From: Pseudomonadales bacterium
GTDB taxonomy: Bacteria > Pseudomonadota > Gammaproteobacteria > Pseudomonadales > Pseudohongiellaceae
Length of the DNA: 45,890 nt
NCBI GenBank assembly: GCA_023256835.1
Contig: JALREE010000292.1
Coordinates: 1 to 45,890, forward strand
Direction: 5' to 3'
Made by a program: the position numbers and the translations under genes. How positions within the stretch are numbered: the first letter of the stretch is position 1; each line of letters starts with the position of its first letter. Positions 16,218 to 26,656 of the stretch are shown one piece after another. The notes under the pieces were generated by a model. That model searched no databases and had not been told where the DNA came from. It worked only from the letters and a program-made list of their open reading frames with translations.

Positions 16218-16657
16218 TCAGCGCTCGATGATCTCGCCACGCAGGGCGGCCAGGCGGGCCAGCAGGCGATTCTGCGGCCCGAGGGGAATGCCGGCCTTGT
16301 CCATCGCGGCCATCATGTCTTCCACGATGGCATTGAAGTCGGCCTCCGTCACACCCATGCCGGCATGGGTGTCGATCATGCTGTCACCCTGATCTGATAC
16401 GCACAGGGGCCGTCGGCCACCATGCACAGATGCTGGTTCAGCATCACGCGAAAGCGCTGCACGTTCGACACCTCGAAGTGATCGATGACGCGCTCGTCCC
16501 CCGCAATCTCCAGAATGAAGTTCTCCACGATGATGGCGATGGCTGACTCGCCGCCCAGGGCCTCGTAGAGCGTCGCCTCGGCGGGCTTGCCGCTGCAGGC
16601 CGTCAGGCTGCAGGACAGCAGCAGGGGCAGGACGAGCGTGCGGGCGCGCGGTGACAT
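16218..16657 (-). pseudogene. Lipoprotein truncated hemoglobin, split by 5-bp duplication
   Basis: Two overlapping frames together encode a group 1 truncated hemoglobin. Frame one (from ATG 16657) gives a lipoprotein signal (SCSLTAC, Cys21), then TLYEALGGESAIAIIVENF and LNQHLCMVADGPCAYQ, and ends early at 16376. Frame two carries the remainder, GDSMIDTHAGMGVTEADF, with the expected proximal His, down to the stop at 16218. The break is a tandem ATCAG ATCAG (plus-strand CTGAT at 16389-16393 and 16394-16398). Removing one copy gives GPCAYQGDSMIDTHAGMG, the normal family reading. So an intact gene would be about 145 codons. It begins 3 bases after the DUF3034-like gene and is probably in its operon. 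Real inactivation, slippage-based switching or an assembly error cannot be separated here. Confidence 0.85.
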
Positions 16658-16660
16658 GAT

Positions 16661-17507
16661 TCAGAAGGCTCCCTGCAGTGAAAGGTAGACGCCCGACTGG
16701 TCCGGGGCTCCGGCGATGAGACCCAGGTTCACCCAGGCGGCCGTGAGGGACACGCGCTTGTCGGGGAACCAGGCGATGAATACATCGTGGGCATCGTGTT
16801 CTTCCAGCGCGCGCAGATTGTCCGGCTTCTGACGATATTCGGCGCCGACCACCCAGCTGCGCGTCAGGAACACGGCCACCGCGGCTTCCAGTTGCCAGCG
16901 TGCGTCCATGTCATCCCCGCCATGGCCCAGCAGGCCGTACTGATTGGCGCTGGAATGCCGCAGATTGACGTTGAGCAGCGTGGTGCGTCCCGCCACCCCG
17001 GCAATCCACGCCCGGGCAGCACCCACATAGAGATCGGTGCCGGCCGTGCTGCGTGCACCCACGGCTCGGGCCGTGGCCGGGTCGCGCAGGGCATGGTGTT
17101 CCACGCCCGCCACCAGCTGCGGCAGCCGGTCGTAGAGCACATCGCCCGCGACTCGCCACTTCAGTCCCACCACGTCCTGGCTGATCCTGGCGCCATTGGC
17201 CTTGATGTCGAAATTCTGTCGGGCGAACGAGACCTCGGCCCGGTCGCGGATGTTGAGCGCGGCGCCGGCGACGTCCAGGGTGAAGTCATCCACGCTGGCA
17301 TGGGTGGCGAACACGCTGCCGCTGGAAGAGGGGGTGCGTGGCATAGCCGGTCAGCGTGGCCCAGGGAATCAGACCGCCGCCACTGGCGGCGCTGATGCTG
17401 CTGACGCCGCCGGTGCCGCGCAGGCGGCCGTCCAATTGCGCCTGCGCCGCACTGGCAAGAAAGCCCAAGGTCAGCAGCGTGCAGGCGAGGGCGGCACTCT
17501 TTTTCAT
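16661..17507 (-). pseudogene. DUF3034-like outer-membrane protein, frameshifted
   Basis: The first frame (ATG 17507) starts with a signal peptide (MKKSAALACTLLTLGFLASA, then QAQ) and LDGRLRGTGGVSSISAASGG, then GLIPWATLTGYATHP, after which it turns to unrelated residues and stops at 17286. A second frame continues with SSSGSVFATHASVDDFTLDV and runs to 16661, ending LQGAF with the terminal Phe usual for outer-membrane beta-barrels. Deleting one base from the G5 run at 17330-17334 joins them as GYATHPSSSGSVFATHASV. The combined product, about 280 residues, matches what I recall of DUF3034 proteins, whose role is unknown. The ATG overlaps the cupredoxin stop (ATGA) and the stop is 3 bases from the hemoglobin gene, so this is the middle of an operon. 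Confidence 0.82.
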
Positions 17508-18169
17508 GGGGACACTCCAGACTGGGGTTGCGTCAGCGCGCGGAAGCCGAACACCTGGTCCGGCTGGCGCACGTTGAGCTGGACGCGCAAGGTGCCGTCG
17601 GCGTCAGGTTCCAACGCGTTGAGTTCGCGGCGATTGTCCGGATCGGTGGACCAGGGATGCCAGATCGACAACGAAGGCGGCAGTGTGCTCATGGACAGGG
17701 TGGCACTGCCCTGCGCGTCGGTGACAGCCACGTGCGCAAACTCGCTCACGTAGATGTATCCCACCATACTGTCGTGGGTGTTGCAGCCCAGCACGGCGAT
17801 GCCGGGCTGGTCGAACAGGATCGGATCGCCATGCACATCCGCGTACAGCTCGGTGGAGAACTGCGGGATGGGCGAGAACGAATACACGTGATGGCGGATA
17901 TTGTCGTTGTTGGGGAAGTTCACCGACTGTCCCTGGGCGATGGCGATCACCATAGGCACGAAGCGCTTGTTGATCTGGTCGATGACGGCGATCTCGCCGG
18001 GCACTTGCTGCAGGGCTTCGTGCCGGCTCTCGACCACAGCGTTGGCGAGTGGCAGGCCGTCCTGATCCACCACCAGCACGTGCAGGTCGGCGACGGCGCT
18101 CAATGGCGCGAGCGCGCAGGCCAGCAGCAGGCCTCTACGCAGGAGTGGGACGAGTGATCGAGACGACAC
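17504..18169 (-). CDS. Exported cupredoxin, methylamine-utilisation-like
   Basis: A protein of about 221 residues with a signal peptide (RRGLLLACALAPLSAVA). The first part of the mature chain (LHVLVVDQDGLPLANAVV) resembles a carboxypeptidase-regulatory-like beta-sandwich. The second part carries a type 1 copper site: NIRHHVYSFS with candidate His, then LGCNTHDSMVGY with the Cys-x2-His-x2-Met ligand cluster. Such proteins are often labelled methylamine utilisation protein, though no methylamine genes are here. I prefer the GTG at 18169, preceded by AGGA 6 bases upstream; in-frame ATGs at 18187 and 18232 lack a site. The stop overlaps the next gene's ATG. It probably carries electrons or copper in the periplasm. 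Confidence 0.78.
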   Translation of the reverse strand: MSSRSLVPLLRRGLLLACALAPLSAVADLHVLVVDQDGLPLANAVVESRHEALQQVPGEIAVIDQINKRFVPMVIAIAQGQSVNFPNNDNIRHHVYSFSPIPQFSTELYADVHGDPILFDQPGIAVLGCNTHDSMVGYIYVSEFAHVAVTDAQGSATLSMSTLPPSLSIWHPWSTDPDNRRELNALEPDADGTLRVQLNVRQPDQVFGFRALTQPQSGVSP

Positions 18170-18260
18170 GGAGGTTCCTGGGAGCATGGGATTCTGCCGA
18201 GGCTTACGCCTCTGCGCTGCAGTCTGGATCACTGCGACGCAGGGGCGTGCGCGACGGACA

Positions 18261-22454: not shown

Positions 22455-23999
22455 ATGAGTCGCCAGTTTGCCATTGTGACAGCCTGCCTGCTGTGTTCGA
22501 CGCAGGTGCAGGCGCAAGTGGAACTGGCCGGGGAGCGCTGGTTTGCTGTCGACACTCCCAGCTTCCAGATTCTCAGCCAGCGCTCGCGCGCCGATACCGA
22601 GGAACAGGCCCGCTTGCTGGAGGCCTGGCGCCAGGCCGCCGTGCAGATTCTGTCTCCCGCGCTTGTCATCGGTGCCGACCCGATTCCCAACTACGTCTAC
22701 CTGTTCGACAATGACGACGATTACCGGCCTTTCGCGGAAGGTCAGGATTCTGCGTATCTGTATTCCTCCCCGCGTTCCAATTTCTTGGTGGTCTCCGATG
22801 CGCGCGGTGCGCAGGATCTCGCGGAGCATCACTACAGCCACTTTCTCATCAACAATCGGCCGATCGGTCTGCCGCGCTGGTTTGAGGAAGGCATGGCGCA
22901 TTACCTGTCGCGCCTGCGTGTGGAGGATGCACAGGTTAGTCTGATCCCCCTGGCTCGTGAACAGTACGATCTGGTGCTCGACGTTAATGACGTGCTCACG
23001 CTGGAGGAAATCCACTATGACAATGCCGCGCTGGCATCGCCGCGCCTCGTCCAGCTGGCCAATCTGAAGTCCGGTCTGTTCGTGCATTTTCTGCAGCACG
23101 CGCACGAATACGAGGGTTTTCTCGATCGTCGCAAACAGCTGCAGGACTACCTGGGGCATCTGCAGCAATCCCGCGCGGAACGCTTCGCCTACGATCAGTC
23201 CTTCGATGTCTCGCTGACTGCACTGGAGGAAGAGTTCGACCGTTTTCTGGTCTTGCTGAGCGAGACGCGCGAGGACGAACGCAATCTGTTTTCCCAGGAC
23301 GAATCAGCCGAGTTCACGGCGCAGCAGGCGCCGCTCGCACAAGTCACCCTGCAACTGGGCGAGCTGGCGCTGCATGCCGGCCGCTTCGAGCTTTCCGAGG
23401 CGTATTTCACGGCGCTGATGCAGGATGCAGCGCCACCCGGGAGAGCCTGGTCGGGGCAGGCCGATGCCTTGCGCATGCGCGAGTACGAAGAGGGCGACGT
23501 GGCGCCCGCAGTGGAGCCCCTGTATCTGCAGGCGCAGCGCATCGAGCCTGATGATTACCAGCTCTATCTCGACTACGGGCAGTATCTGGACACGGAGCTT
23601 AAGGACTGTGACGCGGACTACGCGCCGGCGCAGCGCGAACGGATGCAGCAACTCATGCGGGAGCAGTTCACTCGCGCCTTGGAATTGAACCCCGATTCGC
23701 CTGAAGTCCAGCTGTCCTATGCTCAGCTGTTCAGCGTGCCCGGCGCCGACTGGCAGCAGGGGATGCCCCATCATCAGCGTGCGCTGGACAGCCTTGCCGC
23801 CGATTCCTTTGTTCTGGAACAGGCTGTCGATTACGCGATTCTGGCCGACCGACTTGCAGACGCCAGACGACTTGTCGATCGCATGGCCCGGCCGATGCAC
23901 TTCTGGGGCGAGCACCCGTGGATCAGCGCTTTGAACGGCAAACTGCAGGCCGCCGATCGCGGGCAGCCCTGGGATGCCTGTGCGGACGCCGGGCGATGA
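22455..23999 (+). CDS. Exported protease-like TPR protein with altered zinc motif
   Basis: A 514-residue exported protein with a signal peptide (MSRQFAIVTACLLCSTQ, cleavage near VQAQ). Residues about 25-160 resemble gluzincin-type DUF1570 / peptidase MA proteins, with WFEEGMAHYLS at 142-152. Where these have HExxH, this protein has His125-His-Tyr-Ser-His129, so the catalytic Glu seems to be replaced by His126 and activity is doubtful. The C-terminal half (from about 295) contains TPR-like helices (VTLQLGELALHAGRFELSEAYF). GGAG lies 7 bases before the ATG. It heads a three-gene same-strand set (22455-26656) of exported TPR-type proteins with very short gaps. Precise role is unknown. Confidence 0.72.
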   Translation: MSRQFAIVTACLLCSTQVQAQVELAGERWFAVDTPSFQILSQRSRADTEEQARLLEAWRQAAVQILSPALVIGADPIPNYVYLFDNDDDYRPFAEGQDSAYLYSSPRSNFLVVSDARGAQDLAEHHYSHFLINNRPIGLPRWFEEGMAHYLSRLRVEDAQVSLIPLAREQYDLVLDVNDVLTLEEIHYDNAALASPRLVQLANLKSGLFVHFLQHAHEYEGFLDRRKQLQDYLGHLQQSRAERFAYDQSFDVSLTALEEEFDRFLVLLSETREDERNLFSQDESAEFTAQQAPLAQVTLQLGELALHAGRFELSEAYFTALMQDAAPPGRAWSGQADALRMREYEEGDVAPAVEPLYLQAQRIEPDDYQLYLDYGQYLDTELKDCDADYAPAQRERMQQLMREQFTRALELNPDSPEVQLSYAQLFSVPGADWQQGMPHHQRALDSLAADSFVLEQAVDYAILADRLADARRLVDRMARPMHFWGEHPWISALNGKLQAADRGQPWDACADAGR

Positions 24000-24022
24000 T
24001 CCTTGCCGTGAGGAGGGTCTGC

Positions 24023-25453
24023 ATGCGCTTCATCACCGTGGTGGCAGTGCTGGCTTCGACGCTTCTCGCATCAGCGGCGTTGCCTGCCGTATTGGACCCC
24101 GAAAGCCCCGTGGAGCTGCCACTGCAGCAGCTTGAGACTGCGCTGGATGCCGCTGGGGTGGACATCGCCTTCAATCTCAATCGTCGACAGGTGGCAGGTC
24201 AGTCGCCACGCCGACCCCGTATCGGGGCCTTGGCGGATCTACCGCCTTTGAGTTTTCCGGACTCCGAGCAGCTGCTCGCCTGGGAGGAGGCCTTGGCCCG
24301 CGGCGAGATCGGAGCGCTTGCGTTTCTGACAGCGGAACAGGCCATTCCATCGGCCGACGAGGATTTTCATCGCCGTTGGCTCGACACTCCGGCGCCTCAG
24401 CGCCATCTGCTGAGTTTCGCCAGCGTGGATGCCATGACGGCAGCCACAGTGCAGGCACTGCTGCAGGCTGAGCATGCCACGCTGCTGCTTAGCGGCGCTG
24501 CCGTCGCGCAGAGTCCTGAGGCAGGGGGGCGTCTGTTTGCCACGGCTGGACGACGCTGGGTCGTGGATTCTGTCGCTGCCCGGGATCTCGATCTGACCAT
24601 ACCCGACTTCGACCTGCTGGGGGAGTCCCTGCGGCGCGACAGCGACTCGGCCATCGATCCTGACAGCAGGGCACTGCGGCGCATCGCGGCGAACGAGCCG
24701 GCGGTCTTTCTCAAGGAGAGTCTCGGCGATGAGTTTGAAGCGTCGACAATTCCCGAGATCATCGTTCCTGGCGGAATTGCCTTTGGTGAAAACGCGGTCT
24801 TGCATTCTGAGAACGTGGCTTTGGTGTTCGCGGAGGATCGGTTGTGGCTGGCGCAGAACGGACGCCGGCTTCCGCTGCCGGCCGAGGCCCCGGCCTTGCT
24901 CAAGGCGGCCTTCGATCTTGCCAGGCGCTCCGAGCGTACAGGGTCTGATGCCATTGTCGACATCGATGAGCGCGGACGGGTCCGTATCTCGTCCGAGCTC
25001 AAGGACACGGATCTTGGCGCGGGGATGGTGCGCCTGGACCTTGTGCCGTTCAATCACGTGACGCGGCTGGATGTGCTGAAGAGCGTGATCATCGACACCA
25101 GTGTCGCGATTGAGCAGAGGCAGGACGAGCTTCACTTCCTGACTAAGTACGAGGTGCGGTTTCTTCAGTCCGATCGACTGCACATCGCGCGCACGCAGGC
25201 CGCACTGGTGTATCGCTATGACTCCTCGAGTCAGTAGGCGACATTCGAGGACTCCTGGGGGCCCGAGGCCTTCAGGCTGGAAGGGCGTACCGATTTCGAT
25301 GCTCTGGGCAGCAGCACTGCAGAAGCGGGCCGCTTTGCTGCCTGGATCGCGCTGTTCCGCAAGGTGCACGGGAATGCACTGGATTTCAGTCACGGACGCT
25401 ACGAGTTCCTCAAACTGGACAAGGCGGGTCGGGCAACTCCCACCCGGATGTGA
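24023..25453 (+). pseudogene. Exported unknown protein interrupted by an in-frame amber codon
   Basis: The frame opens at 24023, with GGAGG 8 bases upstream, and encodes a signal peptide (MRFITVVAVLASTLLASAALP) and about 404 residues to a TAG at 25235-25237. The same frame then continues for another 71 codons without a stop (ATFEDSWGPEAFRLEG, then GRFAAWIALFRKVHG and HGRYEFLKLDKAG) to a TGA at 25451. That end lies 6 bases before the next gene, matching the tight spacing of this set. So the original protein was probably about 476 residues and the amber codon is a nonsense change, or the codon is read through, or it is a sequencing error. I recognise no known domain; the central part is rich in charged residues and has no Cys. 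An ATG at 23996 overlapping the previous stop is an alternative start. Confidence 0.7.
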
Positions 25454-25459
25454 GCGGCG

Positions 25460-26656
25460 ATGTGCAAGCAATGCCCCCTGATGAGAACGACAGTGCTGCT
25501 GGTTCTGGTGGCACTGCTGTCCGGTTGTTCCGCGATCCGGCTGGAACTCCCCCTTGCGTCGGACAATGCCCTGGAAGCGCAGATCCTGTCACAGCAGGGC
25601 GATGCCTTTCCGCAGCTCGACCCACTCGCCTTGAATCAGGACATCATCGACTACCTCGACACTCATGTGACCGATCGCTCTTCGGACTACCGTATCGTTG
25701 ATCGTCTGCAGCAATTGCTCTTCACCGAAGGCTATCTGAACCTGCAGTACGACGATCAGCGCACGCGCACTGCCGTGCAGACCTTTGCCGACAGGCAGGG
25801 CAATTGTCTGTCCGTGGTCAGCCTCTATATCGCGATGGCGCGTCATCTGGGCGTCAATGCTCAATATCAGACGGTGCGCGTGCGCCCGAGCTGGGACCGT
25901 CGTGGCGAGCACCTGGTGTTGAGTCAGCACATCAATGCCATCGGGCGACTTGATCAGAACACGCAGTACGTCGTCGACTTCACGCCTGAAATCACCCTGC
26001 AACAGCTCACGGCCAGCCGCGTCACGGATGCACAGGGTCGGGCACTGTATTTCAACAATCTGGGTGTCGAGGCGCTGATCGCCAATGAACTGGATCTGGC
26101 GGTGGCCTATTTCCGCAATGCGCTGTGGATTGACCCCGAACAATCGATTGTCTGGAACAATCTTGGCTCCACTTACAACAGGCAGGGCCATCGCGACTTC
26201 GCAGGCTACGCCTATCGCAAGGCCTTCTCGCTCGATCGCACAAATGCCACCGCCATCAACAATCTGGTGAAATTCCACACGGCGGAAGGCGATTTGGAAA
26301 CCGCGCAGCGTTACGCCAGAGCCATCGAGCGTTTCAACGAGAGCAACCCCTATTTTCATTACAACCTAGGTAACGAGGCCTACGCGCAGGGGGATTTCGA
26401 ACTGGCTCGCACACACTACGAGCGTGCCATACGACGCAAGGACGGTGAGCCGGACTTCTATCTGGCCTTGAGCAAGACCTGGGAAATGCTGGGCGACATG
26501 GAGCAGTCTGCTACACAGCTGGCGCTGGCGCGCGTGACCGTGCTGACAGCCAACCAGCTTTACCTCCCGAGTCGTGACAAGGTGCGCGTGCTGGATGAGC
26601 GGTCGATTCTACGTTCTTCGAGTGCGGGGTTCAGCGTGCGGGCCACCCCGCGTTGA
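25460..26656 (+). CDS. Lipoprotein with transglutaminase-like and TPR domains
   Basis: A protein of up to 398 residues. The N-terminal signal has a lipobox, LLSGC (Cys23). An alternative start at codon 8 (25481) leaves the same lipobox and is equally likely, since no strong ribosome site is seen. Residues about 60-195 look like a transglutaminase/cysteine-protease-like fold: GNCLSVVSLYIAMARHLG with the candidate nucleophile Cys116, a later His-containing stretch (HLVLSQHINAIG) and YVVDFTP with a candidate Asp. TPR repeats follow (ALYFNNLGVEALIANELDLA, then SIVWNNLGSTYNRQGHRD and PYFHYNLGNEAYAQGDFE). It closes the three-gene exported set. It may process or bind a cell-envelope protein, which is inference. 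It converges on ispB with 10 bases between. Confidence 0.78.
   Translation: MCKQCPLMRTTVLLVLVALLSGCSAIRLELPLASDNALEAQILSQQGDAFPQLDPLALNQDIIDYLDTHVTDRSSDYRIVDRLQQLLFTEGYLNLQYDDQRTRTAVQTFADRQGNCLSVVSLYIAMARHLGVNAQYQTVRVRPSWDRRGEHLVLSQHINAIGRLDQNTQYVVDFTPEITLQQLTASRVTDAQGRALYFNNLGVEALIANELDLAVAYFRNALWIDPEQSIVWNNLGSTYNRQGHRDFAGYAYRKAFSLDRTNATAINNLVKFHTAEGDLETAQRYARAIERFNESNPYFHYNLGNEAYAQGDFELARTHYERAIRRKDGEPDFYLALSKTWEMLGDMEQSATQLALARVTVLTANQLYLPSRDKVRVLDERSILRSSSAGFSVRATPR

Follow-up and report, generated by a model that had tools for sequence, protein, structure and literature searches.

Does the second gene of a three-gene module in a Pseudohongiellaceae genome really end at an in-frame amber codon, or does the gene continue beyond it? 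The window that we analyzed is a stretch of 45,890 nucleotides from this genome (G000), and every gene discussed here lies on its + strand. An open frame from ATG 24023 encodes 404 residues of an exported-type protein (24023..25234; by inspection, the N-terminus resembles a signal peptide) and stops at TAG 25235-25237, with CAG as the codon before and GCG as the codon after. Past the TAG, the same frame has 71 sense codons (25238-25450) and then TGA (25451-25453), and the ATG of the next gene (25460) is 6 bases beyond this TGA. The sequence-only reading had described this arrangement of an amber codon, 71 open codons, and a 6-base gap, and we confirmed its coordinates. The extension encodes the peptide LEGRTDFDALGSSTAEAGR. 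By itself, a run of 71 codons free of stops is unremarkable (about 10% of base shuffles of this stretch stay open); homology is what lifts the extension above chance.

We searched for the gene in related genomes (14 from the genus and 137 from the family) and found homologues in 14 of 14 and 56 of 137, respectively. About 50 homologues cover the site of the TAG, and every one has a sense codon there, so the TAG is private to G000 in this set. The complete homologues run 71-75 codons further to a common C-terminus, which ends in a TP.R motif. The homologues read through the site to the same end, so the 71 codons after the TAG belong to the gene. The TGA at 25451..25453 is the ancestral terminator, and relatives have their terminator at the same place. 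In the nearest relative (G004), the protein is 81% identical over the 404 residues upstream of the TAG and matches at 63 of the 71 residues of the extension. The start of the gene is probably ATG 23996, which overlaps the stop codon of the upstream gene, because the open frame of the G004 orthologue begins at the matching place. The full family frame would then be 23996..25453 (ATG 24023 is the alternative start), and a 476-residue homologue aligns to it from end to end, with the one TAG inside. Counted from 24023, the ancestral gene had about 476 residues, and the annotated product now has 404.

The sequence-only reading had proposed either a nonsense change or programmed readthrough. The alignment supports a nonsense change: the extension is conserved in all of the homologues, the TAG is not, and none of the roughly 50 homologues ends naturally at this position. 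The same reading had suggested that the TAG could have arisen from CAG by a single change, but the relatives do not support this route. The codon opposite the TAG in G004 is GCG (alanine), which would need two changes to become TAG, and the codon at this position varies widely. Elsewhere in the genus, the codon is GCC, GCT, GAG, CAG, ACT, TCG, TCC, AGC, or GTG. No residue is conserved at the site, and conservation across the region is lowest there.

We then considered what the truncation would remove. The protein has no match in Pfam, NCBIfam, or solved structures, so we refer to its gene as the orphan gene. (A Foldseek search of the PDB gave a best E value of 0.11, which is meaningless. Of 41 members, 2 matched TIR_2 at E = 0.05, too weakly to be of use.) We used AlphaFold2 to model an intact relative from a 41-sequence alignment (pLDDT 85.5, pTM 0.84). 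In the relative's numbering, the model has strands at 353-366, 369-383, 389-400, and 405-412 and a helix at 433-449. The TAG aligns with residue 405, just ahead of strand 405-412, and so falls in the variable hairpin turn that links predicted beta strands 389-400 and 405-412. As modeled, the truncation takes away the final strand of the sheet along with the C-terminal helix, which are the part of the family fold that the 71 codons encode. The residues lost include the family-invariant W412, G413, L428, G429, W441, R446, and G458-Y460. We infer that the truncated product would be non-functional or have reduced function. The early stop may also cut translation of the next gene through lost coupling, because the intact terminator sits 6 bases ahead of that gene. 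Translation is not expected to restart within the extension: by inspection, in-frame ATG or TTG codons are absent except close to the terminator, and a start at the in-frame GTG would yield just a short C-terminal piece. We also searched the same genome for a second intact copy of the orphan gene and found none.

How old is the stop? In comparison to G004, dN/dS is 0.131 before the TAG and 0.117 after it, and among 334 upstream segments as long as the extension, 189 have a dN/dS equal to or below the extension's. Using two outgroups, we assigned 3 clear amino-acid changes after the TAG to the window's branch and 3 to the sister branch. Thus we looked for relaxed constraint in the extension and saw neither relaxation nor acceleration on the window's branch, which is what would be expected if the stop were recent. 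With an old stop, and given the synonymous distances here, the 161 nonsynonymous sites should have collected tens of changes. The small number of changes suggests that the stop arose within about the last tenth of the branch, unless it is read through or is not real. In other words, these comparisons point to a recent TAG or to an artefact, with readthrough as a less likely option.

To see if TAG has a special meaning in this genome, we compared 0.57 Mb of G000 to 1.0 Mb of G004. This gave 205 orthologous stretches in coding frame (65,658 codons, with 92% mean identity). After a codon-position filter, which dropped scan matches that were antisense or lay before over-long starts, the TAG at 25235-25237 was the lone internal stop flanked on each side by substitutions that fall mostly at third codon positions. 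TAG is also an ordinary terminator: it ends 21 of 167 genes (12.6%), while TGA ends 129 and TAA ends 17. We therefore rejected genome-wide reassignment or efficient suppression of TAG, to which we give next to no credence and for which there is nothing in favor but the TAG codon itself. Known cases of amber recoding (pyrrolysine or an amber suppressor tRNA) also place an amber codon within a coding frame, but there the resemblance ends, as TAG terminates ordinary genes here, no candidate tRNA was found, and the site has no conserved residue. Specifically, ARAGORN identified no tRNA with a CUA anticodon among the 26 tRNA loci found in this genome, so the amber suppressor that the sequence-only reading had raised was not seen, although one may lie in the missing part of a genome that is 76.7% complete. 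A simpler reason to encounter TAG is mutational. In these GC-rich genes, 346 of the 547 possible one-step nonsense changes (about 63%) give TAG, which makes it the likeliest nonsense codon.

A more local form of decoding is programmed or tolerated readthrough, in which the TAG would sometimes be decoded to give both short and full-length forms. The low dN/dS of the extension (0.117) and a frame that is open as far as the ancestral stop are what this would predict, and in-frame stops in bacterial genes with purifying selection around them have been reported (PMC7918605). However, the conserved stop and context that are expected of programmed readthrough are absent from all of the relatives, and conservation in the region is lowest at this site. 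The use of TAG as a normal terminator and the lack of a CUA tRNA among those found also argue against it. The stops in PMC7918605 do resemble this one in being in frame with low dN/dS on both sides (TAG in our case), but that study relies on stops that are common to orthologues of at least 2 species, and the present TAG is not shared. The same study says that most stops of this kind persist only briefly, on the scale of polymorphism (PMC7918605), and our case fits that description. We consider readthrough to be quite unlikely, and the programmed form that the sequence-only reading had suggested finds no support. The more specific idea of a lineage-specific leaky stop, tolerated with both short and long exported forms and with the extension under selection via readthrough, seems very unlikely.

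A more serious concern is that the TAG could be an artefact, either from a wrong base call or from strains joined into a chimera in a fragmented metagenome bin, with the organism's gene intact. The genome's 76.7% completeness and its 356 contigs leave room for this, as do a private stop and an undecayed extension, and a low error rate would suffice to produce one stop in 65,658 codons. On the other hand, none of the other orthologous stretches that we sampled has a coding-type internal stop. Also, all five of codons 401-405 differ between the window and its nearest relative, which suggests a fast-evolving turn rather than one miscalled base.

The neighboring genes provide a further comparison. 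The orphan gene lies in a module of three genes for exported proteins (22455-26656), all of which are present in 14 of 14 genomes from the genus and, with few exceptions, lie at adjacent coordinates. The upstream gene (22455..23999, +), which has weak TPR matches, is intact in all relatives that we checked, and so is the downstream gene (25460..26656, +), which encodes a lipoprotein-like protein with a transglutaminase core and TPR. Within the family, three more homologues of the orphan gene have private lesions: a TAA near residue 123 (G103, L214), a TAG near residue 83 (G107, L215), and an apparent frameshift near residue 170 (G152, L229). We found no lesions among about 50 homologues of the upstream gene or about 95 homologues of the downstream gene. 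(Stops that were flagged in the upstream gene in G123 and G137 are outside the homologous region.) Random errors should strike the three genes in proportion to their length. By our own after-the-fact estimate, the length-weighted chance that all 4 of 4 lesions would lie in the orphan gene is about 0.007, or about 0.02 if the window is excluded, as it was selected because of its stop. As the lesions are confined to the orphan gene, an error process that is blind to genes fits less well, and overall we view an artefact as unlikely, though not negligible. Lesions in the orphan gene next to intact neighbors would fit the occasional loss of a dispensable gene.

Separately, many members of the family that keep the third gene of the module lack the orphan gene (56 versus 90 of 137 genomes). 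One genome bin, G011 (stated contamination 5%), has two similar copies of the module, on C370 and C383, which are probably from two strains or species that were mixed.

We think it likely that a recent nonsense change, private to this genome, created the TAG in the module's second gene. An ancestral gene of about 476 residues (from 24023) would have had a sense codon in the variable hairpin turn that became TAG; the relatives' varied codons do not single out which codon this was. Translation would now end at residue 404, so that the final beta strand and the C-terminal helix are missing, and the change would be real in the organism, whether fixed or polymorphic in its population. Several caveats apply to this nonsense change. 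The base was read from one assembled sequence of the species, the codon of the nearest relative (GCG) is two changes off, and an undecayed extension is also expected from a base-calling error or rare readthrough. Still, the comparisons above suggest a recent gene break of an ordinary kind rather than a special decoding signal. It resembles recent bacterial pseudogenes with a single lesion in having one private stop in a conserved, undecayed frame and in the sporadic independent lesions among relatives; it differs in that the orphan gene is known here from one sequence of the species. That private lesions recur in the orphan gene, while the rest of the module stays intact, hints that this gene is dispensable in some lineages. 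There is also an effect on annotation: gene callers will give a truncated protein of 404 residues, although the real length for the family is about 476.

Two other observations came from these comparisons. Within the window, about 2 kb (16236-18255) has about 180 bases in its place in the G004 contig, which is otherwise syntenic. And a public record that is titled Klebsiella pneumoniae (L020) groups by sequence with the window's genus, so its title looks wrong.
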